NCBI GenBank assembly: GCA_009917445.1
Contig: QZEE01000021.1
Span: 1-64,000 of the forward strand
Length of the DNA: 64,000 nucleotides
From: a bacterium D16-76
GTDB taxonomy: Bacteria; Bacillota; Clostridia; Oscillospirales; Acutalibacteraceae
Reading direction: 5' to 3'
The notes under the pieces were generated by a model, which worked only from the letters and a program-made list of their open reading frames with translations, was not told the DNA's origin and did not search any database. Positions 20,918 through 55,602 of this stretch are shown piece by piece. The position numbers were made by a program, and so were the translations under genes. Each line of letters opens with the position of its first letter. Position 1 is the first letter of the stretch.

Positions 20918-21067
20918 ATGAATGTAATTGACGAACGCGCGACCAAGTTAGGGGAATTTATCGTAGAAAACAAGGCCACCGTCCGCCGGGCGGCGAAGCA
21001 GTTTGGGGTTAGCAAGAGTACGGTACATATGGAAGTAACAAAACAGAGAGGTTTGTTTGGGCTGTGA
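20918..21067 (+). pseudogene. spoIIID: 5' part of spoIIID, interrupted by the mobile element
   Basis: ATG 20918 (AAGAGGTG upstream) opens a sequence that is clearly the N-terminus of the sporulation regulator SpoIIID: MNVIDERATKLGEFIVENKA, then the helix-turn-helix start RRAAKQFGVSKSTVH. Homology ends at codon 37 (CAT 21026-21028), in the recognition helix, and 13 foreign codons follow to a stop at 21067. The missing 46 residues (HKDVSQRLQYID ... MATKKKYQSLK) lie 34.4 kb away at 55462-55602 on the same strand and in the matching frame. The uninterrupted gene would encode 82 residues, close to the usual SpoIIID length. The 49-residue product as it stands should not bind DNA normally. Confidence 0.93.
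21024..21029 (+). repeat. attL core of the spoIIID-interrupting element
   Basis: TACATA at the left junction matches TACATA at 55460-55465; the presumed crossover dinucleotide is CA (21026-21027). spoIIID sequence lies to the left and element sequence to the right. Confidence 0.85.
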
Positions 21068-21080
21068 ACTAGTAAGGAAT

Positions 21081-21126
21081 ACAGCATACCGTGGGGCATT
21101 TAGGCAGCCCGGTATGCTGTGTTTTT
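21081..21126 (+). terminator. Terminator just inside the element's left end
   Basis: ACAGCATACC (21081-21090) pairs with GGTATGCTGT (21111-21120), followed by GTTTTT. It would end any transcript from the spoIIID promoter shortly after the truncated frame and so insulate the element while integrated. Confidence 0.8.
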
Positions 21127-21397
21127 ATTGTGTGTGGGATCATCGGCAGGCCTGTTCATCAAGGCTACATTGGCTGGGGGAACGCGCTTGGCAGCTGGTC
21201 CTCAGCCTGATGCTGCTCTGGTTCTTTTACAGTATGCTTATCAAAAACTGTAAATACCGGAGCGGGAGCCGCAGGTGCACGGAGGTGGAGCCGCGGTTCA
21301 CCGGGGAAAAAGCTGCGGGTTGCCGGATGAGAGCCGCAGTAGGTATAATGTAGAGTAGCACGCAGAGCGTGACTGCAAAACATAGGAGGTCTACAAA
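21127..21397. other. Gene-free stretch inside the left end
   Basis: About 270 bases between the terminator and the IS21-type transposase remnant. No coding frame with a ribosome site is convincing. The end nearest the transposase contains its ribosome site (AGGAGG, about 21385). Confidence 0.5.
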
Positions 21398-22184
21398 ATG
21401 AGTAAGGTAGACTATTGGGAGATGCTGGGGCTGGAGGCGATGGGGTATAGCCGAGCCAGGATAGCGGCCAGCGTCCGCAGTTCCCATCACACGGTAAAGG
21501 CAGTGCTGGATACTGCCGCAGAAAAAGGAGTTACATGGCCGTTGGGAAGTGAGGTCAGAAACGAGGAGTTAGGAGAGATGCTATTCCCAGACAAATGTCA
21601 GAGTGTTGGGAACTACGCAGAACCGGATTACGCTGCCATCCACAAGGAACTGGCAAAGCCAGGCGTAACAATGACGCTGCTGTGGGAAGAGTATCGCGCA
21701 AGATGTTACGAGAACGGCCAGACACCATACCAGTCCACGCAGTTCGGAGAGAAATACCGGCGCTGGGCACGGGTGACCAAGGCAACATTGAGAATACAGC
21801 ACAAACCCGGAGATGCCATGGAAGTTGACTGGGCAGGCGACACCATCCCGGTATTCGACCCTGTGACAGGGGAGGAAGATACGGCGTATCTGTTCATAGC
21901 CGTCCTGCCATGCAGCTGCATGGTCTATGCGGAGCCATGCTTGGACATGAAAACAGAGAACTGGCCGTTGTGTCACGTCCACGCCTACAACCACTTTGGC
22001 GGCGTGACGCGACTGCTGATCCCGGATAACTGCAAAACTGCAACCGTTACCAACACCAGGTATGATACGGTTTTAAACCGCAGCTACCAAGAACTGGCAG
22101 AACACTACGGCGGCACAGCAATCGTTCCGGCAAGAGTGCGCAAGCCACAGGACAAGAGTCACGCGGAAAGCTCTGTCAGGTTCA
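21398..22184 (+). pseudogene. istA: IS21-family transposase IstA, 3'-truncated
   Basis: ATG 21398 with AGGAGGT upstream starts an IS21-type transposase: an N-terminal helix-turn-helix (RARIAASVRSSHHTVKAVL) and an RNase H-like core with acidic residues in VDWAGDT, LLIPDNCKTA and KSHAESSV, the D, D, E triad. The homology stops right after the catalytic Glu (AESSVRF, about 22184); some 200 C-terminal residues and the istB helper gene are missing. The frame runs on into unrelated sequence to 22399. It is an inactive remnant at the border of the glycan cluster and may mark how that cluster was joined to the element. Confidence 0.82.
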
Positions 22185-22486
22185 GCTGCATTTTATCGTC
22201 CTCCCTGCTTCCACATCATTATAGCATATTGGGGTGGCAGAGGATAGTTTGTCAACACGACCTATTTACACCGCACTTTGGAGTTTACACAGTATCTGGG
22301 ACAGAGCCAAATTTTGCGTCACTAAACAGGGAAAAGATTTCGCCAAGTTCACTTCAAAAAACAGTGAACACTTCTCCGCACTTATACATCATTCCATAGT
22401 GCGTATTGTAGACGCTCTACCTATAGAATACTCCGAGACACATTTTAAAATTATCCCCAAAATGAGTTGATGCTTCATTCTCAAAC
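22185..22486. other. Junk between IS21 remnant and glycan cluster
   Basis: About 300 bases without a gene. On the minus strand there is a TTGACA (about 22246) and, further on, GCTATAATG (about 22218) followed by GGGAGG and a short frame, which may be the 5' end of a lost gene or IS. Otherwise AT-rich and unassigned. Confidence 0.4.
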
Positions 22487-23392
22487 TTACAAATATGGTA
22501 AAATATTCCTTATCCCGCAAGCAAAACTAACCTCTGGCTTCCACCCAGTATCATCATGCAAAGATGAAATATCTGCATAAACCCCCACTTCTTCTCCAGG
22601 CTTAAATGGGATTTCTCCAAACCCCAAATCCAATTGAGGGTTTATGGCATTCCTCATTTCAATAACATATTCTTTTAACTTTCTTTTCTGCCCACACCCT
22701 AAACAGTATGTTTTATTCCCTGTTGCCTTTTTCCCTACGAGAAAAAGGGCTCTTGCAGCATCATCGCAATGCAAGTAGTCCCATACCTGCGTCCCCTCTG
22801 TGAACAGACATTTTTCTCCCTTTTTCATTCGAGAGGCTGTGGAACGCAACATGGTTTCCGGTCTGTCATATCTTCCGTACACGCTAAAAAGCCGTATCCA
22901 AAAAAAATCTACTCCCAACTGCTCTGCCAGCGTGAAACCCAATTGACCAGCGGCATATTTACTGATACCATACGCTGTGTTTGGGCAAACCGTATCCTCT
23001 GGAGAAAGCAAAGCATGCTTATGTGGCCCATACTCAGCCTGTGAGCCAGTACCGATAAACTTTTTGCATCCTAAACTCTTGGCAAGGTACAGCGCATTTA
23101 ACATATATCCTATATTTGCCTGTTGCAAATTCGGGTTTACTCTACTTACCTTATCTGTACCGCACCATGCCAGATGAAAAAAAGCATCACAGCCATGATT
23201 TAAAGAAATTCTATTTTTCATATCCGCTAAATCAAAGTCCACCATCTGCAAGCGATTTGATTGCGGAAGTCTATTTGTATGTTCTGAATTTGTGCGCACA
23301 AAAGCATATACAAAGCACCCGTGTTCTAAACACTCGTTCACTAAGGCTACTCCTATACTGCTAGTGGCTCCACTTATGGCTACGGTTTTCAT
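22487..23392 (-). CDS. NAD-dependent epimerase/reductase, YerF-like candidate
   Basis: A 301-residue extended short-chain dehydrogenase: the Rossmann glycine motif GATSSIG near the N-terminus, HLAWCGTD, and the catalytic pair Y-x3-K in YGISKYAAG. ATG 23392 begins the domain cleanly; an in-frame ATG five codons earlier (23407) is also possible. It overlaps the end of the TPP enzyme gene upstream, which argues for a joint job. In the CDP-yersiniose pathway the TPP enzyme YerE adds a two-carbon unit and the reductase YerF reduces the new keto group; this gene holds the matching position. The assignment rests on context, since this superfamily has many reactions. Confidence 0.6.
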   Translation of the reverse strand: MKTVAISGATSSIGVALVNECLEHGCFVYAFVRTNSEHTNRLPQSNRLQMVDFDLADMKNRISLNHGCDAFFHLAWCGTDKVSRVNPNLQQANIGYMLNALYLAKSLGCKKFIGTGSQAEYGPHKHALLSPEDTVCPNTAYGISKYAAGQLGFTLAEQLGVDFFWIRLFSVYGRYDRPETMLRSTASRMKKGEKCLFTEGTQVWDYLHCDDAARALFLVGKKATGNKTYCLGCGQKRKLKEYVIEMRNAINPQLDLGFGEIPFKPGEEVGVYADISSLHDDTGWKPEVSFACGIRNILPYL

Positions 23393-25127
23393 TGAGAAAT
23401 GCATCATAGACTGCTTTTACCTTTCGGCTAATTTCTGGCCGTACAGTTGGTTCCTGCTCATGAATAGGTTTATTAAGACCCAGTTTGGGAAAAATGTATG
23501 TATTCTGTGGGAGAGGGATTTCTATAAAGGCAGGATCCATATCCAATAAGATGGGGGGGAGGATTTCCAATGCAGGGTTGTCTATCACTCGCATTCCATA
23601 TGCTCTTGCAATCGCCTTGAAATTGGGAACTGTAAACCCCCGATCGCCTTGAGTCTGCACAAAATTGCTTTGAAAGTATATTTCCTGAAAATGATGAATC
23701 ATCCCTAAGGTGTGATTATTGAGAAGGATGATTTTTATGGGAATGCGTTCTCGCATGACAGTCTGTAATTCTTGTATATTCATTTGGAAACCGCCATCTC
23801 CTGCTACGCAAATGACAGGACGCTTCACTGCTATAGCTGCACCAATGGCAGCGGGGAGTCCGTACCCCATGGCACCATGTCCTCCTGAAAAAAGGATACG
23901 TTGTTCTTTCTTTACATCCCAGCTTTGAGCTACCCATACTTGGTTCTGTCCTACGTCTGTTGTAACGATAACCCCCTCTGGCAAAAGGGAGCTTACCTGC
24001 CTTATGATTTGATTCCCTGGCTGCGGTTGATCGGCCAGTTCCAGTTCTTCGCGTATCGCCTTACAACAACGGTTCCAAAGATGGAAATCCCAATCAAAAC
24101 CAGAAGCCTTTTCTGCAAGTGCTGGCATAAGCTCTTCCAGAGAAATGCAATAATGCCTTTCTTTTTTGTTTATCCGATTTTCCATCTCATCAGCGTCTAT
24201 ATCTACACGAAGTATTTGGGCTCGTGGGGCAAATAAAGCTTTATCCACACCTGTTTGACGGCAATCTAATCTACTGCCCAAGGTTAAGATACAATCGCTA
24301 TGGTCAAGGATGTAATTTGCCCAACGGGAACCGTATGCGCCAATCATGCCATATGTATACAAATTTTCTGTCTGGAGCACATCAACACCCGTCATGCTCG
24401 TTACTGTTGGAATACCAGTCTGATCTACAAACTTTCTAAAAACGCCTATAGTCTTAGATAGCGCAATACCATGTCCAGCCAATATGACGGGTGAGTGAGC
24501 CGCTTGCAATTCGCATAAAATTTCGGAAACCGTAGGCTCCATATCTGTTCCTTCAGTGATTTTACTTGAAATCGTCTGTGATGTATCAGGCAGGAATCGT
24601 TCATCTATATTTCCGCGAAAAATATTCATGGGCACATCCAGCAAAACCGGCCCAGGTCGTCCCTCGAGAGACGTATAGTAGGCTTTATCCAAGGCTGCTG
24701 GCATATCCTCCACGGATTCTACCATATAGGCAGTCTTGGTGATAGGTTTAGCCATCGACACAATATCAGTTTCTTGAAACCCTTTTTGCCGGACTGGCAT
24801 ATCTTTTTTTTGCTCATATGTGTTTACTTGTCCAGTTATAAAAATGCAAGGAATAGAGTCAAAATAGGCGCAAGCAATTCCTGTAAGAAGATTGGTCGCC
24901 CCTGGTCCACTTGTTGCGTAGGCAACACCTGGCAGACCTGTTATTTCTGCCCACGCACAGGCTGCCATAGCACAAGCTTGTTCATGGTAATTGAGATGGA
25001 CAGAAATGTGTTCGCGATACTTATCCAGGGAATCCATTAAATGTGTAACCATGCCACCAGGATATCCGAAAACATCCCGTATATTATGTTTGATTAAAAA
25101 CTCGACAATATAGTCAGAAACTTTCAT
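23361..25127 (-). CDS. Thiamine-diphosphate carboligase, acetolactate-synthase type; YerE-like candidate
   Basis: A 588-residue ThDP enzyme of the acetohydroxyacid synthase family: N-terminal PYR domain with catalytic Glu49 (NYHEQACAMA) and TSGPGATN, a middle domain, and a C-terminal PP domain with the ThDP/Mg motif GDGGFQMN ... NNHTLG. No regulatory subunit (ilvN) or branched-chain amino acid gene is near. Instead it directly follows the three genes that make CDP-4-keto-3,6-dideoxyglucose. YerE is the AHAS-like flavoenzyme that couples the acetaldehyde unit of pyruvate to C4 of that sugar on the way to yersiniose A. I infer the same branched-chain step here. Family firm, substrate inferred. 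Confidence 0.72.
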   Translation of the reverse strand: MKVSDYIVEFLIKHNIRDVFGYPGGMVTHLMDSLDKYREHISVHLNYHEQACAMAACAWAEITGLPGVAYATSGPGATNLLTGIACAYFDSIPCIFITGQVNTYEQKKDMPVRQKGFQETDIVSMAKPITKTAYMVESVEDMPAALDKAYYTSLEGRPGPVLLDVPMNIFRGNIDERFLPDTSQTISSKITEGTDMEPTVSEILCELQAAHSPVILAGHGIALSKTIGVFRKFVDQTGIPTVTSMTGVDVLQTENLYTYGMIGAYGSRWANYILDHSDCILTLGSRLDCRQTGVDKALFAPRAQILRVDIDADEMENRINKKERHYCISLEELMPALAEKASGFDWDFHLWNRCCKAIREELELADQPQPGNQIIRQVSSLLPEGVIVTTDVGQNQVWVAQSWDVKKEQRILFSGGHGAMGYGLPAAIGAAIAVKRPVICVAGDGGFQMNIQELQTVMRERIPIKIILLNNHTLGMIHHFQEIYFQSNFVQTQGDRGFTVPNFKAIARAYGMRVIDNPALEILPPILLDMDPAFIEIPLPQNTYIFPKLGLNKPIHEQEPTVRPEISRKVKAVYDAFLNENRSHKWSH

Positions 25128-25147
25128 AGGTCAGAGAGAACCCTCCA

Positions 25148-26479
25148 TTATTGTTCAAGGCTTTCTAAAATCACCTGCACCATATACTCCAGCATGTCGT
25201 TTGTAATCCCTGGGTACAATCCCACCCAAAACGTATCACGCACAATCCTGTCCGTATTCGCTAAATCGCCCACCACGCGGTAACCCTTTCCCGCTTTCCC
25301 CAGTTCGTCAAAGCAGGGGTGCCGCAACAGGTTGCCGGAAAACAGCATACGTGTCTGCACGCCTTTTTGCTCTATGTACCGCACGACCTTTTCCCGGTCA
25401 ATTCCCTTCCGGACAGTCAGCAGAAAGCCGAACCAACTGGGCCGGGCATTTTCCTCGTGGTAAGGCAAAAGCAGCTTGTCCTCTGCCCGGGACAAGCCCT
25501 CCCGCAATGTCCGCCAATTTTCGTTTCGCCGCCGGATAAAACCGTCCAGCTTTTTCAATTGTGCGCAGCCGATTGCTGCCTGCATATCCGTCATTTTCAA
25601 ATTGTAGCCAAAGTGGGAGTACACATATTTGTGGTCGTACCCCTTGGGCAATTCGCCGTACTGCCCGTCAAAGCGGTGCCCGCAGGTATCGTCCACGCCG
25701 GAAGGACACACGCAGTCCCGGCCCCAGTCCCGCATGGAGAGCATAATGCGGCCCAGCATGTCATTTTTTGTGTAGACGGCTCCGCCCTCACCTGTGGTAA
25801 GATGGTGGGCCGGGTAGAAGCTAGAGGTGCCTAAATCGCCAATAGTGCCGGTTTTCCGGTATCCGCAGCCCATGTCATAAGCCGCGCCCAAGGCGTCGCA
25901 GTTGTCCTCAATTAGCCACAGATTATGCTTGTCGCAAAACTCCTTGACGGCCTGCAAGTTGAAGGGGTTGCCCAATGTGTGCGCCAGAAAGACACACTTG
26001 GTTTTCTCGGAAAGCGCTTCCTCTAGCATGGAAACGTCGATGTTATAGGTGCCCAGCTTCACGTCCACAAACACGGGCACCGCTCCGAATTGTAAAACAG
26101 GCGTGACGCTGGTGGGGAATGCCGCCGCCACACAGATTACCTCGTCCCCCCGCTGGATAGCGCGCTCTTTCAAGAGCGGCGAGGTCAGCGTCATAAAAGC
26201 CAGCAGGTTTGCGGATGACCCGGAGTTTACCGCCGCTACATGCTTCACGCCCAGAAATTCACCCAGCCCACGTTCAAATTCCTGGCAGTACCGTCCAGCG
26301 GTCAGCCAGAATTCCAGCGCAGAGTCTACCAAGTTTATTTGCTCCTCTGCATTGTAGACTCGGGAGCAGTATGGGATACGGTCACCTGGACTGAAGGGCT
26401 TTTTCGCTGCATCCTCCACCTGGCGGTACTCCCTCACCAGCGAGTATATTTCCTGCTTGATTTCATCTTTTGTACGCAT
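25148..26479 (-). CDS. rfbH: CDP-4-keto-6-deoxy-D-glucose-3-dehydrase (E1)
   Basis: A 443-residue PMP-dependent, iron-sulfur dehydrase that removes the C3 hydroxyl from CDP-4-keto-6-deoxyglucose, the key step to 3,6-dideoxyhexoses. Unlike aminotransferases it has His at the usual Schiff-base Lys site (FYPAHHLTTGEGG, His225/226). It shows the E1-type [2Fe-2S] cysteine set: C194 and the C256-x-C258-x7-C266 motif (DCVCPSGVDDTC). The glycine/serine PMP loop is NSGSSANLLAF. It follows rfbG by nine bases. The usual reductase partner E3 (RfbI/DdhD) is not in the window. Very confident by these diagnostic residues. Confidence 0.95.
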   Translation of the reverse strand: MRTKDEIKQEIYSLVREYRQVEDAAKKPFSPGDRIPYCSRVYNAEEQINLVDSALEFWLTAGRYCQEFERGLGEFLGVKHVAAVNSGSSANLLAFMTLTSPLLKERAIQRGDEVICVAAAFPTSVTPVLQFGAVPVFVDVKLGTYNIDVSMLEEALSEKTKCVFLAHTLGNPFNLQAVKEFCDKHNLWLIEDNCDALGAAYDMGCGYRKTGTIGDLGTSSFYPAHHLTTGEGGAVYTKNDMLGRIMLSMRDWGRDCVCPSGVDDTCGHRFDGQYGELPKGYDHKYVYSHFGYNLKMTDMQAAIGCAQLKKLDGFIRRRNENWRTLREGLSRAEDKLLLPYHEENARPSWFGFLLTVRKGIDREKVVRYIEQKGVQTRMLFSGNLLRHPCFDELGKAGKGYRVVGDLANTDRIVRDTFWVGLYPGITNDMLEYMVQVILESLEQ

Positions 26480-26488
26480 TTTTATTCC

Positions 26489-27556
26489 TCATATTTTATC
26501 CAAATATTTCATAATTTGCTTGCCCATTACACAGGAGACATCTTCTTGTTCCAGCCATGCTCTCGTCCACTCCACTGTTTTTTCAATGGCAGTCTGTACA
26601 TCCCACGATGGTTTCCAGCCAAAAGTAGTTTTCATCTTAGAGCAGTCTAATTTCAAGAAATTGTCCTCATGGGGTGCGTTCGGTTCGGCCCTGTTCTCCC
26701 AAGTTATGCTGTCTCCCCACGCCTTACAGAACATGTCCACCAACTCGCCTGTGGTAACACAGTCGCTGTCATCCGGCCCGATATTATACCAACCTGCCAG
26801 CTTTTTATCTTCACATTGACGCCGTGCCACTAGCAAATATGCGAACAAGGCTTCCAGCACATGCTGGTATGGGCGGATGGAGTAGGGATTGCGGACAGCA
26901 ATGGGTTTTCCTGCTTGAGCCGCCCGCACGCAGTCTGGAACAATGCGGTCGTGGGCGAAGTCGCCGCCGCCAATTACGTTGCCTGCCCGCACAGTGGAGA
27001 CTGCCACAGGCGAATCCGCAAAGAAACTCTGCACATAGCTATGGGTCACCAATTCCGCGCAAGACTTGGAATTGGAGTAGGGATCCCGGCCATCCAAGGG
27101 GTCATTTTCCCGGTATCCCCAGGCCCAGTTTTTGTTCTCATAGACTTTATCAGTGGTGATAATCACCACTGACTTTACAGGTACCTGTAAGGCGCGGATG
27201 CACTCCAAAAGATTCACTGTGCCCATCACATTCGTCTCATATGTACCGACAGGATCTTTATAACTATCACGAACAATAGGCTGCGCTGCCAGATGGAAAA
27301 CCATCTCCGGCTGAGCATCACGGAACGCCTGCATCAACTTATCCCTATCCCGGATATCGCCGATGATGGATGTCATATTTTGTTCCAATCCAGATATGGA
27401 AAACAAGTTTGGCTCAGTGGGAGGCGGCAGGGAGTAACCTGTCACTACAGCCCCAGCATTTATCAAAATCCTGCACAGCCAGCTGCCCTTAAAGCCTGTA
27501 TGCCCCGTGACAAGCACTCGCCTCCCACGGAGGAAATCCAAAGAAAACCTTGTCAT
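26489..27556 (-). CDS. rfbG: CDP-glucose 4,6-dehydratase
   Basis: A 355-residue extended SDR that converts CDP-glucose to CDP-4-keto-6-deoxyglucose using bound NAD. It has the glycine motif as GHTGFKGSWL, which is typical of this enzyme, the substrate region TTDKVYEN, and the catalytic Y-x3-K as YSNSKSCAE. ATG 27556 is two bases from the end of rfbF, and the order F-G-H is that of known dideoxysugar operons. It acts in the cytoplasm on the product of RfbF. Confidence 0.95.
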   Translation of the reverse strand: MTRFSLDFLRGRRVLVTGHTGFKGSWLCRILINAGAVVTGYSLPPPTEPNLFSISGLEQNMTSIIGDIRDRDKLMQAFRDAQPEMVFHLAAQPIVRDSYKDPVGTYETNVMGTVNLLECIRALQVPVKSVVIITTDKVYENKNWAWGYRENDPLDGRDPYSNSKSCAELVTHSYVQSFFADSPVAVSTVRAGNVIGGGDFAHDRIVPDCVRAAQAGKPIAVRNPYSIRPYQHVLEALFAYLLVARRQCEDKKLAGWYNIGPDDSDCVTTGELVDMFCKAWGDSITWENRAEPNAPHEDNFLKLDCSKMKTTFGWKPSWDVQTAIEKTVEWTRAWLEQEDVSCVMGKQIMKYLDKI

Positions 27557-27557
27557 T

Positions 27558-28334
27558 TTACCACACCTTCCAAGGGGCTCGGCCCTCTGTCCACAGCTTT
27601 TCCAGCAATTCCTTTTCCCGCACGGTGTCCATACACTGCCAGAATCCTGTATGTTTATACGCCATCAACTGACCCATTTTCGCAGCAGTTTCTAAAGGGG
27701 ATTTCTCCAAAACCGTGTCATCACCGTCAATCATGTCAAAAAACTCTGGCTGACAGACCATGAAGCCGATGTTGATTAGGCTGCCGTCACCTTGGGTCTT
27801 CTCGCGGAATTCATGGATTTGCCCCTCTTTGTCAACGTCCAGCACACCAAAGCGCTGGCCAGCGTTGTAGGCGGAAATCGTTACCATCTTGCCGTGAGAC
27901 CGGTGGAATTTGACCAGTTCCAGGATGTTCACATCGGAAACACCGTCGCCGTAGGTCAGCAGGAAAGATTCGTTGCCCACATAGTCCCGCACACGCTTCA
28001 CCCGCCCGCCTGTCATGGTATTTAGGCCTGTATCTACAATGGTGACTTTCCAGGGTTCAGAGGCGTTTTTGTGTACAATCATGTCCTCTTTGCCGCAAGT
28101 AAAATCAAAAGTAACATCGGAGGTGTGCAGAAAATAATCTCCGAAAAATTTCTTGATGACGTGCTGTTTGTAGCCTGCGCAGATGATGAATTCGTTGAAG
28201 CCGTAGTGACCAAACAGTTTCATAATGTGCCATAGGATGGGCATGCCGCCCAACTCCACCATGGGTTTGGGCTTGAATTGGCTTTCTTCGGAAATTCGGG
28301 TGCCGTAGCCGCCGGCGAGGATAAGAGTTTTCAT
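27558..28334 (-). CDS. rfbF: Glucose-1-phosphate cytidylyltransferase
   Basis: A 258-residue nucleotidyltransferase making CDP-glucose from CTP and glucose 1-phosphate. Signature: LILAGGYGTRISEESQFKPK near the N-terminus, then PMVELGGMPILWHIM, and the activity-specific DYFLHTSDVTFDF. It is the first gene of the rfbF-G-H set. ATG 28334 has GGAAGAAACT upstream. A 220-base gap separates it from the glycosyltransferase-like gene upstream; I saw no clear promoter in it. Confidence 0.95.
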   Translation of the reverse strand: MKTLILAGGYGTRISEESQFKPKPMVELGGMPILWHIMKLFGHYGFNEFIICAGYKQHVIKKFFGDYFLHTSDVTFDFTCGKEDMIVHKNASEPWKVTIVDTGLNTMTGGRVKRVRDYVGNESFLLTYGDGVSDVNILELVKFHRSHGKMVTISAYNAGQRFGVLDVDKEGQIHEFREKTQGDGSLINIGFMVCQPEFFDMIDGDDTVLEKSPLETAAKMGQLMAYKHTGFWQCMDTVREKELLEKLWTEGRAPWKVW

Positions 28335-28553
28335 TTAGTTTCTTCCTTAAATTAATAAGAATGGAACGAATAAACATACTACTGTCAGACAAGAACAGGC
28401 CAGGTATGGAATCATGCAAACAAATACTTGGATGACATGTGCTTTACAGAGTTCCTATCTTGCTAAAAAGTTCTGACCCTGATATCCAACCAGATTGTCG
28501 TTATGTTCTCTTCCAGTTGCTGCCATGTAGATGCTGCCATGAAGAAAAATGTT

Positions 28554-29864: not shown

Positions 29865-29910
29865 TTTGTAACTCCTTGCTTATCATGTTTTGCGCCAAAA
29901 AGAACTTCCT

Positions 29911-31599: not shown

Positions 31600-31670
31600 A
31601 TATATTCCTCACTCTTATAAAAATATGTACTTTTCAACTGCCGCAGCTGGCCTGTTTCTCTTTTCTGCCA

Positions 31671-43629: not shown

Positions 43630-43636
43630 AATTTTT

Positions 43637-43686: not shown

Positions 43687-43705
43687 TTTTCGCCTTAAAC
43701 CGGAG

Positions 43706-43731: not shown

Positions 43732-43769
43732 TATATTTCAACCAGCCCGCGGACTGGCGGAAACCGAAA

Positions 43770-43946: not shown

Positions 43947-43973
43947 ATCGGGTTCCCTCCCGTAATTTTCTTT

Positions 43974-44567: not shown

Positions 44568-44676
44568 CCCCTGACAACGTAAACTTACGAATAACCGACG
44601 TACTTTTCCTATGCCCTATTTTGTGTCTTACACCCTGAGTATCGGCATATTTGCGAAAAAGATAAGGCTAAATTTC

Positions 44677-44724
44677 AAAAAAGCCTCACTTCGTAAATCC
44701 GTACATTTCCGAAGTGCCTTTTTT
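44677..44724. terminator. Bidirectional terminator
   Basis: A-rich stretch, AAGCCTCACTTCG (44681-44693), and CGAAGTGCCTT (44710-44720) followed by TTTT form a hairpin with T tracts on either strand. It would end the invertase transcript on the minus strand. Confidence 0.8.
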
Positions 44725-44726
44725 AT

Positions 44727-45422
<696 letters not shown>

Positions 45423-45537
45423 TTAAAGTTATATATATTTTCACATTTCTCTCCCGCGGTTCCTGCCGTTCTCCCGCTGTTTGTTTCACGACCCGCATCA
45501 ACGCGGTTTCCTCTTCACCGGACACCCCTCTTTTGAC

Positions 45538-49400: not shown

Positions 49401-49447
49401 AAGGCGCTTGCAGACAGCGTATAGATCCGGTAACGAATTTGTGGCAC
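46400..49447 (-). CDS. DxDGD RNA polymerase, cellular RdRP (QDE-1)/YonO-like
   Basis: A 1015-residue protein with the hallmarks of double-psi beta-barrel polymerases of the cellular RNA-dependent RNA polymerase family. First, the stretch TLFDGEGLISKAYAK followed some 20 residues later by SFQIRLPYIKGML (about 267), matching the DG-x-G-x-IS ... FQIR-x-KG block of QDE-1-type enzymes. Second, ERLGGADFDGDMIKTI, where D587, D589 and D591 form the metal-binding DxDGD. The known bacterial/phage relatives are few, including YonO of SPbeta, which is a DNA-dependent RNA polymerase. Whether this enzyme reads DNA or RNA cannot be told. Start GTG 49447 has AGGAGG eight bases before it. Confidence 0.82.
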   Translation of the reverse strand: MPQIRYRIYTLSASALLGYAKEAGDGGYAFFLNAGATEKCKVRAALHEQQDCALFFQAMCVLHGNNYRHPGEDALLNDLAEVICYVDFSNIFDRNAAQTRHAVRQKKAESMFRPEGITLDFGTGPHRYLAFERSSSMSRKAQLSFIREDFYDPLRKHIMMDMKIGDCQLSKLYAYNGLMLSGGMRIDNINIDRLHRVIVIDNPTVTVPYVPVITVEDDGSAGSVRKYRRVERHEDIQVTLFDGEGLISKAYAKVVDKAFCGGHIHTSFQIRLPYIKGMLHQVDFKDFLISGGTETITDLWDVKHEVRDVDIILTKSMFKGYGWLTENGMSWEDYWNAFRRYRHALYITNVSKEKPEKVTTLNYQFLNTVSMTADEFRPGDLPLGRKESPANDERNWLTKETESAYYNYCADEDFRKQYFLSALDRRQFFKKSKAYRMAEILKKNSLFINEPVYTKELNAKAEQILNQYAVGQLIVAGDNRFLSGDLMELLTLLLDGSKLKNAAQKRFYAAAMSNRFAENSYYAPQAAYGHGTESTILRNPHIARNEEIQLMYYAEVEQMRRHYLGHLSDVVMVDSHMLAAERLGGADFDGDMIKTIADPILNACVKRNYEVDSLDNFSNLPLLKIPAAEPQIRNAGDWRARFETVRNTFSSRVGQISNAALDRSIIAYNENSDSELRQQCREETEVLAILTGLEIDSAKSGVKPDLSEYLNKKTVNRSLFLQYKKLLESAEVRGKWYEPTFRQKRKAFFEKTDWEQVDSNLERLPYLAYQLQKNTPKIKPKPAKDSELFFFAQGNWQDSLAPEILSAASDLLHDYEACLSRIRACRAPIKEKPRKNDIERILFRQGQEDDYDADELYAAFQDVLPERIADARTAIVDKKWHFLDPASRDKFLTENLPELAEYHDLFAGFRHGGYRILGDIVCDIDDENQATDRKKYLRDTDSTAFRQMMKTYLEQPLRHDYREVVSQKCRELLDNIVNPRLAVRYVVALGKRNLLWDLLLDHIEENVRKEVPHAE

Positions 49448-49467
49448 AGATATCACCTCCTGCAGAG

Positions 49468-49496
49468 ATTATACCAGTTCTTACCTTACTTTGCAA
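49468..49496 (-). promoter_or_regulatory. Promoter of the polymerase operon
   Basis: Minus-strand TTGCAA (49491-49496), 17 bp, TATAAT (49468-49473), immediately before the ribosome site of the polymerase gene; a housekeeping sigma-A form, so the gene may be expressed in ordinary growth. Confidence 0.75.
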
Positions 49497-49550
49497 ATAT
49501 GAACACTGCTCCCACTTTTTCAAATCGGGAGCGCTGAAAGGACTGGTTAT

Positions 49551-50654
49551 ATGAGTAAAACTACCGAAAAACTCGCCGTTGTGGACGGCGAAACCCTCTT
49601 GGAAATGAGGCTCCCACCCAGCAAATTTTGTATCGACACCCTCCTGCCACAGGGGATCTCTATGCTGGGCGGCGCGCCAAAAACCGGGAAGTCCTGGCTG
49701 GTGCTGGACTGGTGCGTCCGCATTGCAAAGGGCGAACCCGTGTGGGGATTCAGAACAAAGCAAGGCACCACGCTCTACCTCTGCCTGGAAGACCCGCTGC
49801 GCCGGGTACAGGAACGGCTGTGTCAGTTGACGGACGAAGCCCCGCCCAACGCTTTCTTCGCTACTGCTGCCGAAAAGCTTGGCGGCGGTCTGTGCGAACA
49901 GATTCAAGATTTCGTCCGGGAGCACCCTGACACAGTGCTGGTAGCCATCGACACCTTCCAAATTGTGCGCGCAGGCAGCCAAGACGTTTCCTACGCCAAC
50001 GATTATGAGGAAGTGCGTAAACTGAAAGCCTTGGCGGATGAGACAGACATTGCTTTGCTGCTGGTGCATCATTTGCGTAAGCAAGGAGCCAGCGACCCGG
50101 TCAATAAGCTGTCGGGCACCACGGGCATCAGCGGGGCCATGGACGCGCTCTTTATCCTGGACAGAAGCCAGCGCAGTGGCAATACGTCAACCATGCTCTG
50201 TACGGGCCGGGATATTGAGACCCGGCAGATAGAGTTGCGCTTCTCAAAATCAGACTGCGCTTGGGAACGGGTGCAGGATAGCTTGGAGACCCGTGCGCTG
50301 GAAACGCCGGAAGAGCTGGCTGCGTTAATTAAGTTTATACGAACTAGCAAGACATTTGACGGCGGCAATACGCAGCTTGCCTTTGAGGTCAGTAAGGCGG
50401 CGGGTAAGGAAATTCAGCCCAGGGCCCTCAAGCAGATGATGAACCGCTGGCGCTATGCTTTAGAGGAGCGGGGGGTGTTCTTTTGCAGCCGTCGGAGCAA
50501 TGGACAGCGGCTCGTGACGGTTTCTTATTCTCCTGCCCTGCCAGGCAGTGCCGCAAGTGACGTATCAGCTTGTGGCACAAAATCCTGCGTTCCTTGCGAC
50601 CCTGCCGACGCCGAAAGCCTTGTAATCTCTAGGGAAAACGCCCACCCGGCATAA
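49551..50654 (+). CDS. RepA-like AAA_25 ATPase
   Basis: A 367-residue RecA-fold ATPase of the type found in plasmids and integrative elements (hexameric helicase relative of RSF1010 RepA). Walker A GGAPKTGKSW (about 40-49), Walker B VLVAIDTFQ, and the HHLRKQG signature with a sensor-like SGTTGISGAMDALFIL. It may unwind the element's circular form for replication or transfer. ATG 49551; gene divergent from the polymerase operon. The C-terminal ~100 residues are likely a small DNA-binding tail. Confidence 0.85.
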   Translation: MSKTTEKLAVVDGETLLEMRLPPSKFCIDTLLPQGISMLGGAPKTGKSWLVLDWCVRIAKGEPVWGFRTKQGTTLYLCLEDPLRRVQERLCQLTDEAPPNAFFATAAEKLGGGLCEQIQDFVREHPDTVLVAIDTFQIVRAGSQDVSYANDYEEVRKLKALADETDIALLLVHHLRKQGASDPVNKLSGTTGISGAMDALFILDRSQRSGNTSTMLCTGRDIETRQIELRFSKSDCAWERVQDSLETRALETPEELAALIKFIRTSKTFDGGNTQLAFEVSKAAGKEIQPRALKQMMNRWRYALEERGVFFCSRRSNGQRLVTVSYSPALPGSAASDVSACGTKSCVPCDPADAESLVISRENAHPA

Positions 50655-50908
50655 TCAGCAGCCTGCGGCCCTTGCGCCCCTGTGAGGCCACAGCAGGCCC
50701 GTGTTGGCAGTTTTCAGCTGAGGCCGTGGAAGTCCACCCCCCAGGCCGCACAAGGCCGTTTCGGGGCAAATGTGGCCCCGCTTTGCGGTAGTGCTGTTGG
50801 AGCAGGTTCCCAGCCCACCGGGCTGGGGCAAGCAGAGCGCGTGGCTGTCCGCCCCGCACATAAGAGAACCGGGCAGAAGCCCGGACCCACTTCAGGAAGG
50901 AGAAAAGT
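50655..50908 (+). other. Candidate oriT region upstream of mobC
   Basis: A 254-bp GC-rich stretch without a gene, between repA and mobC, carrying several inverted repeats (CCCAGCCC/GGGCTGGG near 50808-50825, CCGGG/CCCGG near 50868-50883). Position directly before mobC-mobA is where oriT usually lies. The nick site itself was not identified. Confidence 0.4.
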
Positions 50909-51226
50909 ATGCAAAATACCAGAAAACGGAATAGAACATTAACAATTCGCCTGACAGAGAAGGAGAAAACTTTGATTCAAAATAAGGCCCGGAAAGCCAA
51001 ATTAAGCGTCACTGATTTTCTGGTTTCTGCGTCCTTGCGGACAGAAATCCACGTCGCCGAGGACATTAAACCCATGTTGATTGAGTTGAAAAGGATCGGC
51101 AACAACATCAATCAAATTACCATGAAAATCAACGCGGGAGCATTTTCATCCGCTGATTTTGGCGAAGTTATTCATGGTCAGCGTTTACTTTACGAGCAGC
51201 TTCTGCGCATAGCGGGGAAAAGCTGA
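50909..51226 (+). CDS. mobC: MobC-family mobilisation protein
   Basis: A 105-residue ribbon-helix-helix relaxosome protein with the family pattern RLTEKEKTLIQNKARKAKLS ... ELKRIGNNINQIT. It helps the relaxase open oriT. ATG 50909 has GGAAGGAG upstream; its stop overlaps the relaxase start by one base. Confidence 0.92.
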   Translation: MQNTRKRNRTLTIRLTEKEKTLIQNKARKAKLSVTDFLVSASLRTEIHVAEDIKPMLIELKRIGNNINQITMKINAGAFSSADFGEVIHGQRLLYEQLLRIAGKS

Positions 51227-52593
51227 TGGCAACCGTTACATATATTAAGGAGGCCCGGCAGGCGGTAAGCGCCATGAAGGGCGTTATCGTGTATTGCCTA
51301 CAAGAAAAGAAGCTTTTGGATGATGCCACTGGCCAGCGTATGGTCAGTGGCATTCATTGTGACGGGGAGAATGCATTCGTGGAATTTATGGCAACTAAGG
51401 CCGTTTATCAGAAGACAAACGGCACAACCTTTTACCACTATGTGCAGTCTTTTTCCCCGGAGGAAAACACCACTCCGCAGGAGGTTCACGCCGTTGCCAA
51501 AGAGTTTGCGGAACGGGCTTGGCCTGGGCATGAGATTCTGGTGGCAACGCATTGCGATGCAGGGCACCTGCATTCTCATTTTGTTGTCAACTCCGTCAGC
51601 TTTGAGGACGGCAGGAAGCTGCGGCAAGGCCCAAGCACATTGCAGTCGTTGCGGCGGTTGAGTGATGAAATTTGCGAAGCGCATGGCCTGTCCGTGCTGC
51701 CTGTGTATGAAAATTCCGGCAGGGACCTTTCCGCCCGGGAGTACCGCGCCGCCGTAAAAGGGGAAAGCTGGAAGTTCAAATTGATGGCGGACATCTGCGC
51801 TGCCATGAACCGCAGCGGCAGCCGTGAGGAATTCAAACGCGAGATGAAGCGGCGCGGCTATCAAGTCAGGTGGGCGGATGAGCGCAAATATATCACGTTT
51901 ACTTGCCCTAATGGCATGAAGTGCCGGGACAGCAAATTACATGAGGACAAATTCAGGAAGGAGAATTTAGAGTATGAGTTGCAGTACAGAGAAGCGTACT
52001 ATGGACGAATTGGTGGCAAGAAATGCAGGCGGCATCAACAGTATGCGCGGTTCGAGCATGCCGGTGATGGTACCGATACAGGAGAAGGATTGGGATACCA
52101 TGGTGGGCTTGCTGGAGAGCGCGGTGGACTTCCAGCCGAGAGTGTATTCGCTGGTGAGGCAGCGGGCGACTCCCGAGCAGATGGCCGATCTACTCAATCA
52201 GTATCTGGAACAGGAGCAGACGATTTCCCAGTCGCTGGTGAGCCAGGTGCAGGAATCGACATCGCGGATGGAGAACCTCGCGCAACAGGCTGGGAGAAAT
52301 CTCGAAAAGAGTTTGAGCGATTCCTTGGAAAGGGGCTCGCAGTTGGAGGCAGCCATCGCCCAGGCCGCAAAACGCCGGAGTTGGAAAACGCGGATCCTCA
52401 TCATCGTGGTATCCGTGCTGGCATCGGCATGGGGGGCGGCGCTGTCCGTTCTGCTGTGTATGCGCTGGCTGCTCTGAGCGAGGACGAGGAGGACCCGGAA
52501 GAACGCCGTAAGCGCATAGAAGCGCAGGAGAATGGAGAAGCCATCGGGACGGCCCTTGGGATGGCTGCAGGGTTGCTGAGCGAATTGAAATAG
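51226..52593 (+). CDS. mobA: Relaxase, MOB-P type (MobA/VirD2 family)
   Basis: A 455-residue relaxase that nicks oriT and leads the transferred strand. The N-terminal ~250 residues are the catalytic domain: an early Tyr (VTYIKEA, IVYCLQE) and the histidine metal site HCDAGHLHSHFVVNSV (about 109-124). The last ~150 residues, in the stretch that overlaps mobB in another frame, are low-complexity Gly/Glu/Arg-rich and look constrained by the other gene. The gene order mobC-mobA-mobB matches mobilizable plasmids and elements. Confidence 0.9.
   Translation: MATVTYIKEARQAVSAMKGVIVYCLQEKKLLDDATGQRMVSGIHCDGENAFVEFMATKAVYQKTNGTTFYHYVQSFSPEENTTPQEVHAVAKEFAERAWPGHEILVATHCDAGHLHSHFVVNSVSFEDGRKLRQGPSTLQSLRRLSDEICEAHGLSVLPVYENSGRDLSAREYRAAVKGESWKFKLMADICAAMNRSGSREEFKREMKRRGYQVRWADERKYITFTCPNGMKCRDSKLHEDKFRKENLEYELQYREAYYGRIGGKKCRRHQQYARFEHAGDGTDTGEGLGYHGGLAGERGGLPAESVFAGEAAGDSRADGRSTQSVSGTGADDFPVAGEPGAGIDIADGEPRATGWEKSRKEFERFLGKGLAVGGSHRPGRKTPELENADPHHRGIRAGIGMGGGAVRSAVYALAALSEDEEDPEERRKRIEAQENGEAIGTALGMAAGLLSELK
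51974..52477 (+). CDS. MobB-like protein encoded within the relaxase gene
   Basis: A 167-residue frame nested in the 3' third of the relaxase gene in another frame. ATG 51974 has AAGGAG ten bases before it. It makes a coherent protein: a helical region with coiled-coil character (about 60-125, LLNQYLEQEQTISQSLVSQV and later repeats) and a single C-terminal membrane helix (ILIIVVSVLASAWGAALSV). RSF1010 mobB is likewise nested in mobA in another frame. Probably holds the relaxosome at the membrane. The relaxase frame here is the less protein-like of the two, which supports this gene being real. Confidence 0.75.
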   Translation: MSCSTEKRTMDELVARNAGGINSMRGSSMPVMVPIQEKDWDTMVGLLESAVDFQPRVYSLVRQRATPEQMADLLNQYLEQEQTISQSLVSQVQESTSRMENLAQQAGRNLEKSLSDSLERGSQLEAAIAQAAKRRSWKTRILIIVVSVLASAWGAALSVLLCMRWLL

Positions 52594-52611
52594 TGAAGGG
52601 AGAATCAAAAT

Positions 52612-52800
52612 ATGATTTTTATTTTCACGTTGGCTTTTGTGTTGGCAAGAGTATTGACTGCATATATATGGTATAGGGACAAGCAAAGGGGGCTCTGTTT
52701 TGAAGAAACAAAAGCTGAATTACCGCTTCCACGACCCCAACCCGGAGGGCGTGGCGGCGAATTACATATTAAAGACTTTCATGGAAGTGGACATGGATAA
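52612..52800 (+). CDS. Small membrane peptide (possible)
   Basis: ATG 52612 has AAGGGAG nine bases upstream and begins with a membrane helix (MIFIFTLAFVLARVLTAYIW) and basic residues. The frame runs to 52800 (62 residues), but the last third overlaps another small gene in a different frame and looks unstructured. Unknown function. Confidence 0.4.
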   Translation: MIFIFTLAFVLARVLTAYIWYRDKQRGLCFEETKAELPLPRPQPGGRGGELHIKDFHGSGHG

Positions 52801-52876
52801 GGTGGAGCAGGCCGTCCAACAGGCAGCGCTGGAGCCGGCGCAGGAGGACGAAGGCATGGGCGGGATGGCTATGTGA
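52700..52876 (+). CDS. Small soluble protein downstream of mobA/mobB
   Basis: A 58-residue frame from TTG 52700 (AAAGGGGG upstream) encoding a basic start and acidic end: KKQKLNYRFHDPNPEGVAAN, then a helix with EVDMDKVEQAVQQAALEPAQ and a Met/Gly tail. The even composition and the well placed ribosome site support a real gene. Family not recognised; it sits in the transfer operon. Confidence 0.5.
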   Translation: MKKQKLNYRFHDPNPEGVAANYILKTFMEVDMDKVEQAVQQAALEPAQEDEGMGGMAM

Positions 52877-52991
52877 AAGAGGGGGCGTGTGGATTGCACG
52901 CCTCTTTTTTTGGTACAGCCAAAGAGAACGCGGTTGCTAATTTGGGCGGCCTGTGATATGATAAAAGAGATGAAACTGCAAGGAGTACAAG

Positions 52992-53183
52992 ATGGATACG
53001 ATAGAGTACAAGGGCTATGTGGGAAGCGTGGATTTTTCTGAACCGGACGGGCTTTTCTATGGGAAGGTCGAAAATGTGCGCGCCCTGGTTTCCTATGAGG
53101 GGGCAACCATTCCCGACTTGATAGCTGATTTTCATGACGCCGTGGATGCATTTCTAAAAATGAAAGGGGCAGAGATACAATGA
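52992..53183 (+). CDS. HicB-like antitoxin N-terminal domain
   Basis: A 63-residue protein with the HicB fold core: YKGYVGSVDFSEPDGLFYGK and LIADFHDAVDAFLKMK. It lacks the DNA-binding end of full HicB proteins and there is no HicA toxin beside it. ATG 52992 has AAGGAG upstream. It overlaps the next gene by four bases, so it is part of the same operon as the HepT-MntA pair; it may be a stray antitoxin. Confidence 0.65.
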   Translation: MDTIEYKGYVGSVDFSEPDGLFYGKVENVRALVSYEGATIPDLIADFHDAVDAFLKMKGAEIQ

Positions 53184-53479
53184 GTAAAGTTTATTCGGTC
53201 AACGAAATTGAAGATGTGCTTCACCCCGTCTTTGCCAGCCACGGCGTGCGGCGAGCCGTCCTGTTCGGCTCTTATGCCAAGGGGATGGCTACGCCTCGCA
53301 GCGATGTGGATATTTTAGTCGACAGCGGCCTGCGTGGTTTAGCTTTCTTCGGCTTATTGGAAAGCGTCACCTCTACGCTGCATGTTCCCGTCGACTTGAT
53401 AGATGTGACCCAAGTTGAGAATGGTTCGCAAATTGAAAGAGAAATACAGAAAACCGGGGTGGAAATATATGGGCAGTAA
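53180..53479 (+). CDS. MntA-type nucleotidyltransferase antitoxin
   Basis: A 99-residue minimal nucleotidyltransferase with the exact family motif G30-S31-x10-D42-x-D44 (LFGSYAKGMATPRSDVDILV). In type VII toxin-antitoxin systems such an enzyme AMPylates and so silences the HEPN toxin encoded next to it. ATG 53180 overlaps the HicB-like stop; its own stop overlaps the HEPN gene start. Confidence 0.88.
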   Translation: MSKVYSVNEIEDVLHPVFASHGVRRAVLFGSYAKGMATPRSDVDILVDSGLRGLAFFGLLESVTSTLHVPVDLIDVTQVENGSQIEREIQKTGVEIYGQ

Positions 53480-53816
53480 AGACAAGGCCGTGCTGAAAAA
53501 AATCCTCCGGCACATTGAAAGCATCATGACGTATTGCAAAGACTGCCATTCCCTGGGGGATTTTTCGGCTGACTCCATGCGTTTGGAAGCCACTGTGTTT
53601 AACCTCATGCAGATCGGCGAACTGGCCAAAGAATCTTTGAGTGATGAAATAAAAGTGCAAATCACAAGCATTCCCTGGCAGCAGATATACGGCATGCGCA
53701 ACCGCATTGTCCACGGCTATTCCGGGGTCAACATGCAGATCGTGTGGGATACTGTATCGGTGGACATTCCCATGCTCCACAAAGAATTAAAGTCTATTAT
53801 TGAAACAAACGCTTAA
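53469..53816 (+). CDS. HepT-type HEPN RNase toxin
   Basis: A 115-residue HEPN (formerly DUF86) protein with the catalytic R-x4-H motif as RNRIVHGY. HEPN toxins are RNA-cleaving. Start ATG 53469 overlaps the end of the mntA-like gene, as in other HepT-MntA pairs. The pair probably stabilises the element by post-segregational killing. Confidence 0.88.
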   Translation: MGSKDKAVLKKILRHIESIMTYCKDCHSLGDFSADSMRLEATVFNLMQIGELAKESLSDEIKVQITSIPWQQIYGMRNRIVHGYSGVNMQIVWDTVSVDIPMLHKELKSIIETNA

Positions 53817-53820
53817 ATAT

Positions 53821-53857
53821 GGCGGGGCCGCTTTAGAAACGGCTCCGCCAATTTTTT
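53821..53857 (+). terminator. Rho-independent terminator
   Basis: GGCGGGGCCG (53821-53830) pairs with CGGCTCCGCC (53840-53849, one G-T), followed by ATTTTTT; it ends the toxin-antitoxin operon before the recombinase promoter. Confidence 0.85.
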
Positions 53858-53858
53858 A

Positions 53859-53887
53859 TTGCTTTTTCCAGCCAGACGTGGTATACT
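53859..53887 (+). promoter_or_regulatory. Sigma-A-like promoter of the recombinase
   Basis: TTGCTT (53859-53864), 17 bp, TATACT (53882-53887), overlapping the tail of the preceding terminator. It resembles a vegetative promoter rather than a sigma-E one, which bears on how excision would be timed. Confidence 0.55.
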
Positions 53888-53930
53888 CCGTGGTAACAAA
53901 TCGTTTAAATTTTATTAGTGAGGTGCGTCC

Positions 53931-55466
53931 ATGAACATCGCCGCCTATTGCCGAGTCTCCACCGACAAGGAGGACCAGCTCAACAGTCTGGAAGCCCAGA
54001 AAGAATTTTTCTCCGAATATACCCAGCGCACCGGGGACGTGCTGGTGCGCCTGTACGCCGATGAGGGCATCTCCGGCACAAAGATAAAGAACCGGAAGGA
54101 GTTCCTGCGGATGATGGCCGATGCCGAGCACCACCTGTTCGACATGGTAGTGGTCAAGGATATCAGCCGTTTCTCCCGAAACACCGTTGACCTGCTCCAA
54201 AGTGTCCGCAGGCTTCGCTCGCTGGGCATCGAGACCCAGTTCCTCACCGCCAGCATGACCAACATGGGCAACAGCGAGCTGTTGCTGACCATGTTCGGGG
54301 CCATTGCCCAGGAGGAGAGCGCCAACACCTCCAAGCGGGTGAAGTTCGGCAAGAAGATGAACGCCGAGAAAGGCCGGGTGCCCAACATCGTCTACGGCTA
54401 TGACAAGACGGTGGGCGACTACTTTAACCTGGCTATCAACCAGCCGGAGGCGGAAATTGTCCGCCAAATCTTCCATATGTACACCGAGGAAGGCGCGGGC
54501 GCGGCAAAAATCGCCAACACCCTCAACCAGCGGGGCCTGCGCACCAAACGTAACTGCTCCTGGAGCCAGAACGCCATCTGCCGTATTTTGACCAACGAAC
54601 TGTACACCGGCAAAATCATCAACGGCAAGCAGGAGGTGGCAGACTTTCTCACGGGCCAGCGGGCGGACAAGCCGGAGGACGACTGGATCGTGGTGGACAG
54701 GCCCGAACTGCAAATCATCTCCCCCGAGACCTTCCAGCGAGCCCAGGAGATACTGGATTCCCGCCACAAGACCTTCCACACTGACCACCAGCGCCAGAGC
54801 AACAAGCACCTGTTTTCCACCCTCATCAAGTGCAAGGAGTGCGGCTGGTCATTTTATCGGACGGTACGCACCTATAAAAACACTTACGTGCGGTGGGTCT
54901 GCTCCGGGCACACGGGCCGGGGCGCGGACAGCTGCCCCAACGGCACTACCGTTGACGAGGATGAATTGATAAACACCCTGCAAAAATACTTCGCCGACAT
55001 ATTACGGCAGAAGAAAAATATCATTCCCTATGTGGTCAGGGAGTTCCAACGGGTCTACCGGGCTAAAGATGACAACCAGGGATATGAGAAAGAACTCACC
55101 GCCCAGCTTCAAAAGCTGCAAAAGACCCGCCAGAAATACATGGACATGTACACCGACGACCTTATCAGCCGGGAGGAGCTCAACGAGAAGATAGGCGGCT
55201 CCAAGAAGGAAATCGAGCGTATCGAAAACGAACTGAAAATCGTGGGATACAACATCACCAAGGGTGACCAACTGGAGAGCATCCTGCAAAACACCTTCAA
55301 GACCATAGAGGACATCACTGATGTGCGCGCCATGACCAACGCCCAGCTCAAGCGGGTCATCCAAAAAATTGAGGTGGACAAGGACGGCAACGTAGATATC
55401 TACCTACGGCTGCTGGGGGAGTTAGGGCTGCCCGAAACCGTTTTGATTCATGACAACCATACATAA
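53931..55466 (+). CDS. Large serine recombinase of the spoIIID-interrupting element
   Basis: A 511-residue TnpX/TndX/phage-integrase-like serine recombinase. Catalytic domain: nucleophile S10 (AAYCRVSTDKEDQ), then VKDISRFSRNTVDLL and SANTSKRVKFGKK. A Recombinase domain (about 165-265) and a zinc-ribbon domain (LIKCKECGW ... WVCSGHTGRGADSC, about 303-343) with a coiled-coil extension (about 385-445) follow. ATG 53931 has GAGGTG upstream. It ends at the stop TAA 55464-55466, which itself lies on the attR core, so the enzyme sits flush with its attachment site, as integrases of intervening elements do. It most likely integrates and excises this element. Confidence 0.93.
   Translation: MNIAAYCRVSTDKEDQLNSLEAQKEFFSEYTQRTGDVLVRLYADEGISGTKIKNRKEFLRMMADAEHHLFDMVVVKDISRFSRNTVDLLQSVRRLRSLGIETQFLTASMTNMGNSELLLTMFGAIAQEESANTSKRVKFGKKMNAEKGRVPNIVYGYDKTVGDYFNLAINQPEAEIVRQIFHMYTEEGAGAAKIANTLNQRGLRTKRNCSWSQNAICRILTNELYTGKIINGKQEVADFLTGQRADKPEDDWIVVDRPELQIISPETFQRAQEILDSRHKTFHTDHQRQSNKHLFSTLIKCKECGWSFYRTVRTYKNTYVRWVCSGHTGRGADSCPNGTTVDEDELINTLQKYFADILRQKKNIIPYVVREFQRVYRAKDDNQGYEKELTAQLQKLQKTRQKYMDMYTDDLISREELNEKIGGSKKEIERIENELKIVGYNITKGDQLESILQNTFKTIEDITDVRAMTNAQLKRVIQKIEVDKDGNVDIYLRLLGELGLPETVLIHDNHT
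55460..55465 (+). repeat. attR core of the spoIIID-interrupting element
   Basis: TACATA at the right junction repeats the attL core at 21024-21029. Element sequence lies to the left and spoIIID codons to the right. The presumed crossover dinucleotide is CA (55462-55463). Confidence 0.85.
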
Positions 55467-55602
55467 AGATGTATCCCAACGCCTGCAATATATTGACAGG
55501 GGCCTGTACCGGGACGTAAAAAATGTACTGGCGGTCAACAAAGCCCAGCGGCACATACGGGGCGGTATGGCTACCAAGAAAAAATACCAGTCGTTGAAAT
55601 AA
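55462..55602 (+). pseudogene. spoIIID: 3' part of spoIIID
   Basis: From CAT 55462 the frame encodes HKDVSQRLQYIDRGLYRDVK ... AVNKAQRHIRGGMATKKKYQ and stops at 55602: the second half of the recognition helix and the basic C-terminal tail of SpoIIID. It has no start of its own and lies downstream of the recombinase. It joins in frame with codons 1-36 at 20918-21025. The stretch is followed by a terminator-like hairpin, which fits the natural gene end. Confidence 0.93.

Follow-up and report, generated by a model that had tools for sequence, protein, structure and literature searches.

In the gut bacterium D16-76 (Acutalibacteraceae), an intervening element of approximately 34.4 kb interrupts the gene of the mother-cell regulator SpoIIID between codons 36 and 37. 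This element probably acts as a skin-like developmental switch, whose excision in the sporulating mother cell would restore spoIIID. Both halves of the gene, as well as the large serine recombinase of the element, are located in the window considered here, that is, the 64,000 nucleotides of contig QZEE01000021.1 from position 1 (coordinates of all features are given in Table 1).

Split spoIIID and Its Junctions

The first-pass annotation of this DNA had described spoIIID as split by a 34.4-kb element, and the coordinates, strand, and frame of both halves are as claimed. Joined in frame at the shared TACATA, the 5′ and 3′ halves yield a single SpoIIID protein of 82 amino acids, also in agreement with that annotation; in the protein, the cut falls between STV and HKD, a region that we take to be the recognition helix. 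The recombinase had been described as ending in the right junction, and indeed its stop codon falls within the right core, TACATA being common to both junctions. The G+C content is about 0.54–0.61 outside the element vs. 0.41–0.54 in segments inside it.

In the assembly of D16-76 (148 contigs, 99.98% complete), the two halves score 69.5 and 55.7 bits with the Pfam SpoIIID profile (PF12116), and there is no third match to this profile. The split pair is the sole spoIIID of this genome; a second intact copy, named beforehand as the observation that would speak against a switch, was not found in it.

In the alignment, attL, attR, and the empty sites of relatives converge on one point. For attP, the junction of the circle, an imperfect inverted repeat (20 out of 36 positions) is predicted, centred on the dinucleotide CA; this dinucleotide, bases 1 and 2 of codon 37 (His), refines the TACATA core. 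Chance is excluded, as the identical codon split and similar flanking att sequences recur in other genomes, among them four assembled as single contigs (G022, G035, G068, and G265).

Recurrence of the Split

Scanning of genome contigs with the recombinase alignment yielded at least 564 relatives, from which the best 80 were retained; this selection is biased toward sequences close to the query. The spoIIID 3′ half is found within 160 nt after the recombinase in 73 out of 80 genome loci and in none of the seven viral loci. The whole-genome search for spoIIID covered 50 of these 80 genomes: intact spoIIID is absent from 48, both halves are above the cut-off in 44, and the 3′ half alone is present in four; G142 has the 3′ half and a weak 5′ fragment. 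In G099, spoIIID is intact, and the recombinase of this genome (L051) has no adjoining spoIIID; after this close recombinase, a CATACATAT-like junction leads into other DNA. G126, one of the 44 genomes, carries an additional intact copy, which we considered as a candidate excised form and rejected, since it lies on a foreign contig and is 71–84% identical. Two 3′ halves are seen in G107, and in G146 the halves are far apart.

Among 99 relatives, both halves and no complete copy are found in nine (G004, G009, G014, G017, G022, G035, G040, G068, and G074; in G014, the 5′ half is truncated by the contig end). G026 has a complete spoIIID and an additional 5′ half, G077 and G078 have one half each, and G024 has an edge fragment only. 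In the class-wide set of 393 genomes, 285 have a SpoIIID match. We followed up 17 of the 18 rows (besides G000) with the best E-value above 1e-23, omitting G254, as single matches in its family score low as well. Both halves were identified in 12 out of 17 candidates and one half in three; G356 and G416 have the 3′ half and a 5′ match containing three stops.

In 46 elements, including that of the window, the two halves are located on a single contig; the size of these elements varies between 3.0 and 74.9 kb, with a median of 12.8 kb, as measured between the profile matches, and in all of them the halves keep their order on one strand. Splitting of spoIIID is widespread, and automatic annotation may label species with the split gene as spoIIID-negative.

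Recombinases located within approximately 3 kb of the splits from the class-wide follow-up are 32–92% identical to the main family, and near several of these splits no recombinase was found within this distance. In G265, where 65 kb separate the two halves, a recombinase with 52% identity lies reversed beside the 5′ half. From these data, at least two recombinase lineages appear to have arrived at the same spoIIID codon. At L188 (G265) and L193 (G198), spoIIID is split without a main-family recombinase at the 3′ half. A quick tree of the recombinases shows those of Lachnospiraceae intermingled in places with those of Oscillospiraceae.

Phages also appear to use the spoIIID-type recombinase family. 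In three IMG/VR contigs (L130–L132; at least 99.99% identical over 21.5 kb), a recombinase with about 70% identity is directly followed by an uncut site of the attP kind, CTCCTGTA-CA-TACAGGAG, and the attribution to phages stems from L131, which also encodes matches to DNA polymerase, head protease, and NrdD. The small partner gene described below also adjoins the recombinase and uncut attP in these contigs.

A Small Partner Protein and Promoters

A protein of approximately 58 amino acids with the KLNYRFHNPN motif is present in 19 of the 20 elements whose proteins were clustered, and a profile built from 13 such proteins yields matches in 84 out of 103 loci, which include some contig edges and loci with the 5′ side only. 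The protein has no Pfam, NCBIfam, or PHROG match, and comparison of the family with PDB chains yielded nothing significant (best E-value 0.13); its structure model is one helix (mean predicted local distance difference test score, pLDDT, 82; predicted template modelling score, pTM, 0.41). Given its place, size, and promoter, we regard this protein as a candidate directionality, or excision, factor.

The promoter matrix was trained on the 16 spoIIID upstream regions that passed the threshold, out of 29 intact relatives scanned, the threshold being set with the Bacillus subtilis sigma-E consensus; the spoIVA upstream regions had no clean common promoter and were left out of the training. At the level of at least six bits, the matrix matches 38 out of 69 non-redundant upstream regions of the small gene, vs. 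3.8% of dinucleotide shuffles, and one out of 61 recombinase upstream regions. Sigma-A-type matches (at least 10 out of 12 positions) show the opposite distribution, occurring in 19 out of 61 recombinase upstream regions (5.5% of shuffles) and two out of 69 upstream regions of the small gene (3.2% of shuffles). Thus, across the family the small gene appears to be of the sigma-E type and the recombinase of the sigma-A type, a pattern significant over the family and weak in the window.

The SpoIIID box in its published form is not enriched upstream of the small gene (two out of 82 upstream regions, 1.8 being expected from shuffles). This is as required, because SpoIIID would be absent before excision from spoIIID.

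Host Sporulation Genes and Split sigK

SpoIVA is present in all 35 out of 35 genomes with split spoIIID, and it is above the cut-off in seven out of 14 relatives lacking spoIIID. In G000, SpoIVA is full-length, and there are two full-length SigE/SigK-type matches (278.9 and 244.6 bits), both below the NCBIfam SigK cut-off (298.65). This strict cut-off is passed by six out of 34 genomes, and the SigE/SigK assignments rest on rank and length. Of 25 split genomes searched for SigK, 17 have two full-length SigE/SigK-type matches, six (G022, G009, G017, G265, G198, and G113) have one full-length match and sigK in two pieces, the cut in G113 being at a different place, and two (G074 and G131) have one full-length match only. 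Among nine controls without spoIIID, two matches are present in five, one of those in G088 containing a stop, and none in four.

In G022 (L186), G009 (L190), and G265 (L187), sigK is split by elements whose recombinases are unlike the spoIIID family, matching it at 22–26% over a part of their length. Neither a SpoIIID box nor a small gene for excision could be clearly identified in these three sigK elements. A promoter-like match in the G265 sigK element (L187, position 6156, plus strand) precedes an open frame of 62 amino acids shortly ahead of the recombinase, possibly encoding an excision factor.

We tentatively suggest, with somewhat less than even confidence, that in G022 (a single contig), G009, G017, G265, G198, and probably G113 spoIIID and sigK are both split by elements with unlike recombinases, and the mother-cell programme may run through two successive DNA deletions: sigma-E would trigger excision from spoIIID, SpoIIID would be produced, and sigK would be rebuilt thereafter. 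If so, two independent mobile elements would constitute a hard-wired two-step commitment.

Proposed Switch and Its Alternatives

The split, its frame, the sole copy, the recombinase, the att sites, the conserved small gene, and the family promoter pattern are read directly from the sequences; from them we infer excision itself, its timing, the timing of the recombinase, and the role of the small protein in directionality. In the proposed sequence of events, the large serine recombinase would integrate a site-specific mobilizable element at a fixed, conserved spoIIID codon; the recombinase would be present in growing cells and, by itself, catalyze integration only. At the onset of sporulation, sigma-E of the mother cell would activate the gene of the small KLNYRFHNPN protein, which would switch the recombinase to excision, so that the element would exit as a circle and codons 36 and 37 would be rejoined, allowing for production of SpoIIID. 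The uncut copy would pass to the spores, and the element would be retained at little cost to sporulation.

The first-pass annotation had called the element a skin-like sporulation switch. Its architecture is strongly supported; as for the developmental role, comparison among genomes argues for mother-cell excision, given the sigma-E-type matches before the partner gene, the retention of SpoIVA in all split genomes, and the lack of an intact copy in 48 out of 50 genomes.

Several observations weigh against this role. The excised chromosomal spoIIID junction was not found, the intact copy in G126 being foreign. The small gene of the window has CATATATA with a poor −35 and scores just 1.4 bits, and 31 out of 69 upstream regions of this gene in the family are below six bits. 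In 19 out of 103 loci, some of these being contig ends, no small protein was identified, and the model of this protein is a single helix. Finally, judging by sequence divergence, the elements move between species: for G004 and G009, the synonymous divergence (dS) is 0.06 in the recombinase and 1.3–2.1 in the spoIIID halves.

This exchange affects the interpretation of selection on the halves. Within the genus, both halves vary almost solely at silent sites (nonsynonymous polymorphism, pN, 0.025–0.029; synonymous polymorphism, pS, 0.52–0.56; five genomes for the 5′ half and six for the 3′ half). As the elements are exchanged between species, the low ratio of nonsynonymous to synonymous divergence (dN/dS) may predate the insertion, and we do not use it as proof that the gene functions while split. 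Better evidence for selection comes from G026 (L037), where only an N-terminal remnant is left of the spoIIID recombinase, and a second copy of the promoter and 5′ half is joined to the 3′ half, forming a whole spoIIID; as this is one draft genome, an assembly fault is possible. The two copies share 149 out of their last 150 bases, and comparison of the flank of the repeated 5′ half with intact relatives gave no indication which copy is older. Another serine recombinase in the G026 element looks whole.

An ordinary insertion, in which spoIIID is merely a conserved attB and recent insertions stop sporulation, the halves having not yet decayed, is unlikely. It would account for the horizontal exchange of the elements, young in some hosts, for the small gene of the window having no good promoter match, and for the seven out of 14 spoIIID-less relatives without SpoIVA above the cut-off, which implies that sporulation has sometimes been lost in the group. 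However, it fits poorly with retention of SpoIVA in every split genome, with the small gene and the recombinase differing in promoter type, as in skin, with the recurrence of the split over several families, including those with recombinases only 32–52% identical to the main family, and with G026 having regained spoIIID where the recombinase broke.

Non-developmental switching, that is, exit and re-entry of the element at low frequency during growth, with only the excised subpopulation sporulating, is distinctly improbable: it leaves unexplained the sigma-E-type matches before the small gene, and 48 out of 50 assembled genomes have no intact copy. On the other hand, the element carries mobilization genes, the phage contigs combine a spoIIID-family recombinase with an uncut attP, and there is a precedent in yin, the element in yabG of Clostridium botulinum, whose excised forms were reportedly detected at every time point (PMC10747680). 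An assembly artefact, which might be suspected as the window comes from a draft assembly, has a negligible probability, since the same split is observed in the four single-contig genomes and in named isolates.

Comparison With Known Intervening Elements

Developmental excision in the mother cell would place the spoIIID elements next to skin, and several features of skin-like elements are indeed present: a split of a mother-cell gene that can be restored in frame at a short repeat, a serine recombinase at the junction, no intact copy, and host sporulation genes. Similarly to skin in sigK of B. subtilis and Clostridioides difficile, a serine-recombinase element splits the gene of a mother-cell regulator. 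In C. difficile skin, the recombinase CD1231 is driven by sigma-A, and the 72-aa factor CD1234 by sigma-E, together with SpoIIID (PMC5025042). The same sigma-A/sigma-E division is suggested here by promoter matches; unlike CD1234, which has a SpoIIID box, the small gene of the spoIIID elements has no enriched box. The target also differs, spoIIID being one step earlier than sigK.

The best full-length solved relative of the recombinase by profile is YokA, or SprA (9dxh, 1.5e-17). SPbeta in spsM (SprA/SprB) also relies on a large serine recombinase, and the sprB promoter resembles a sigma-E/sigma-K promoter (PMC4191935). However, SPbeta is a phage and spsM is a spore polysaccharide gene, whereas the element of the window is a mobilizable island, and the small protein family of the spoIIID elements has no significant match among PDB chains.

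The gin element in gerE of Bacillus cereus ATCC10987 is non-phage, 28.6 kb long, and has three serine recombinase genes (PMC5595907); it is likewise a non-phage element in a very small mother-cell regulator gene, in another gene and another host class. Finally, yin, vfbin in spoVFB, and vrin in spoVR (PMC4191935 and PMC10747680) are also intervening elements of sporulation genes, with other targets.

The first-pass annotation knew of no such case in spoIIID, and we found no report of split spoIIID among the papers listed by searches of the open text of PubMed Central (PMC), a scope that excludes subscription papers, preprints, and supplements. The best reading is that the spoIIID elements form a new branch of skin-like intervening elements, whose target and small partner are new and whose trigger would be independent of SpoIIID. 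As SpoIIID acts between sigma-E and sigma-K, a DNA switch in spoIIID would operate one step before skin; it must start without SpoIIID and thus tests how early the mother cell commits irreversibly. The elements also provide a new family of small candidate excision factors and many recombinases with readable att sites.

Structure and Cargo of the Element

Table 1. Features of the split spoIIID region and the intervening element in the window.
Feature	Positions	Strand	Basis or details
spoIIID sigma-E-like promoter	20863..20891	+	consensus scan; −35 ACATACT, 14 bp, −10 CATACATA
spoIIID 5′ half, codons 1–36	20918..21025	+	open frame extends to 21067, 49 aa
attL (approximate extent)	21005..21060	+	crossover dinucleotide CA at 21026–21027; from att sites of related elements
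Intervening element, ~34.4 kb	21026..55461	.	lower G+C over much of length
Transposase-like protein (rve domain)	21398..22399	+	Pfam below cut-off; PHROG transposase
Cargo: nucleotide-sugar, aminotransferase, radical SAM, glycosyltransferase, and some unassigned genes	22487..41810	-	Pfam/NCBIfam
Flagellin (cargo)	41884..43629	-	Pfam Flagellin_N and Flagellin_C
Small serine resolvase	44727..45404	-	Pfam Resolvase
RdRP-domain protein	46400..49456	-	Pfam PF05183 2.3e-13; PHROG RNA-dependent RNA polymerase 1e-9
AAA_25 ATPase	49551..50654	+	Pfam
NikA/MobC-like mobilization protein	50909..51226	+	Pfam
MobA/VirD2-type relaxase	51226..52593	+	Pfam
58-aa KLNYRFHDPN protein, TTG start, candidate recombination directionality factor	52700..52876	+	conserved near recombinase
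Nucleotidyltransferase (MNT-type, HepT partner)	53180..53479	+	Pfam
HepT-like protein	53415..53816	+	Pfam
Large serine recombinase, 511 aa	53931..55466	+	Pfam Resolvase, Recombinase, Zn ribbon; alignment
attR (approximate extent)	55426..55500	+	crossover dinucleotide CA at 55462–55463; from att sites of related elements
spoIIID 3′ half, codons 37–82 and stop	55462..55602	+	Pfam SpoIIID and joined reading frame

By its gene content, the element of the window is best described as a relaxase-encoding mobilizable element and not as a prophage, because no phage head, tail, or packaging family was found among the 30 element open reading frames (ORFs) scanned with Pfam; the PHROG comparison covered six proteins of the window. 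It combines a relaxase, an accessory mobilization protein, and an integrase, as integrative mobilizable elements do, and no conjugation-apparatus family is seen in the Pfam tables of its ORFs. SPbeta carries YonO, a polymerase of the same broad kind as the RdRP-domain protein of the element. Many genes in the long cargo run are those of sugar modification; together with flagellin, this large cluster (22487–43629, minus strand) possibly encodes an alternative glycosylated flagellin.

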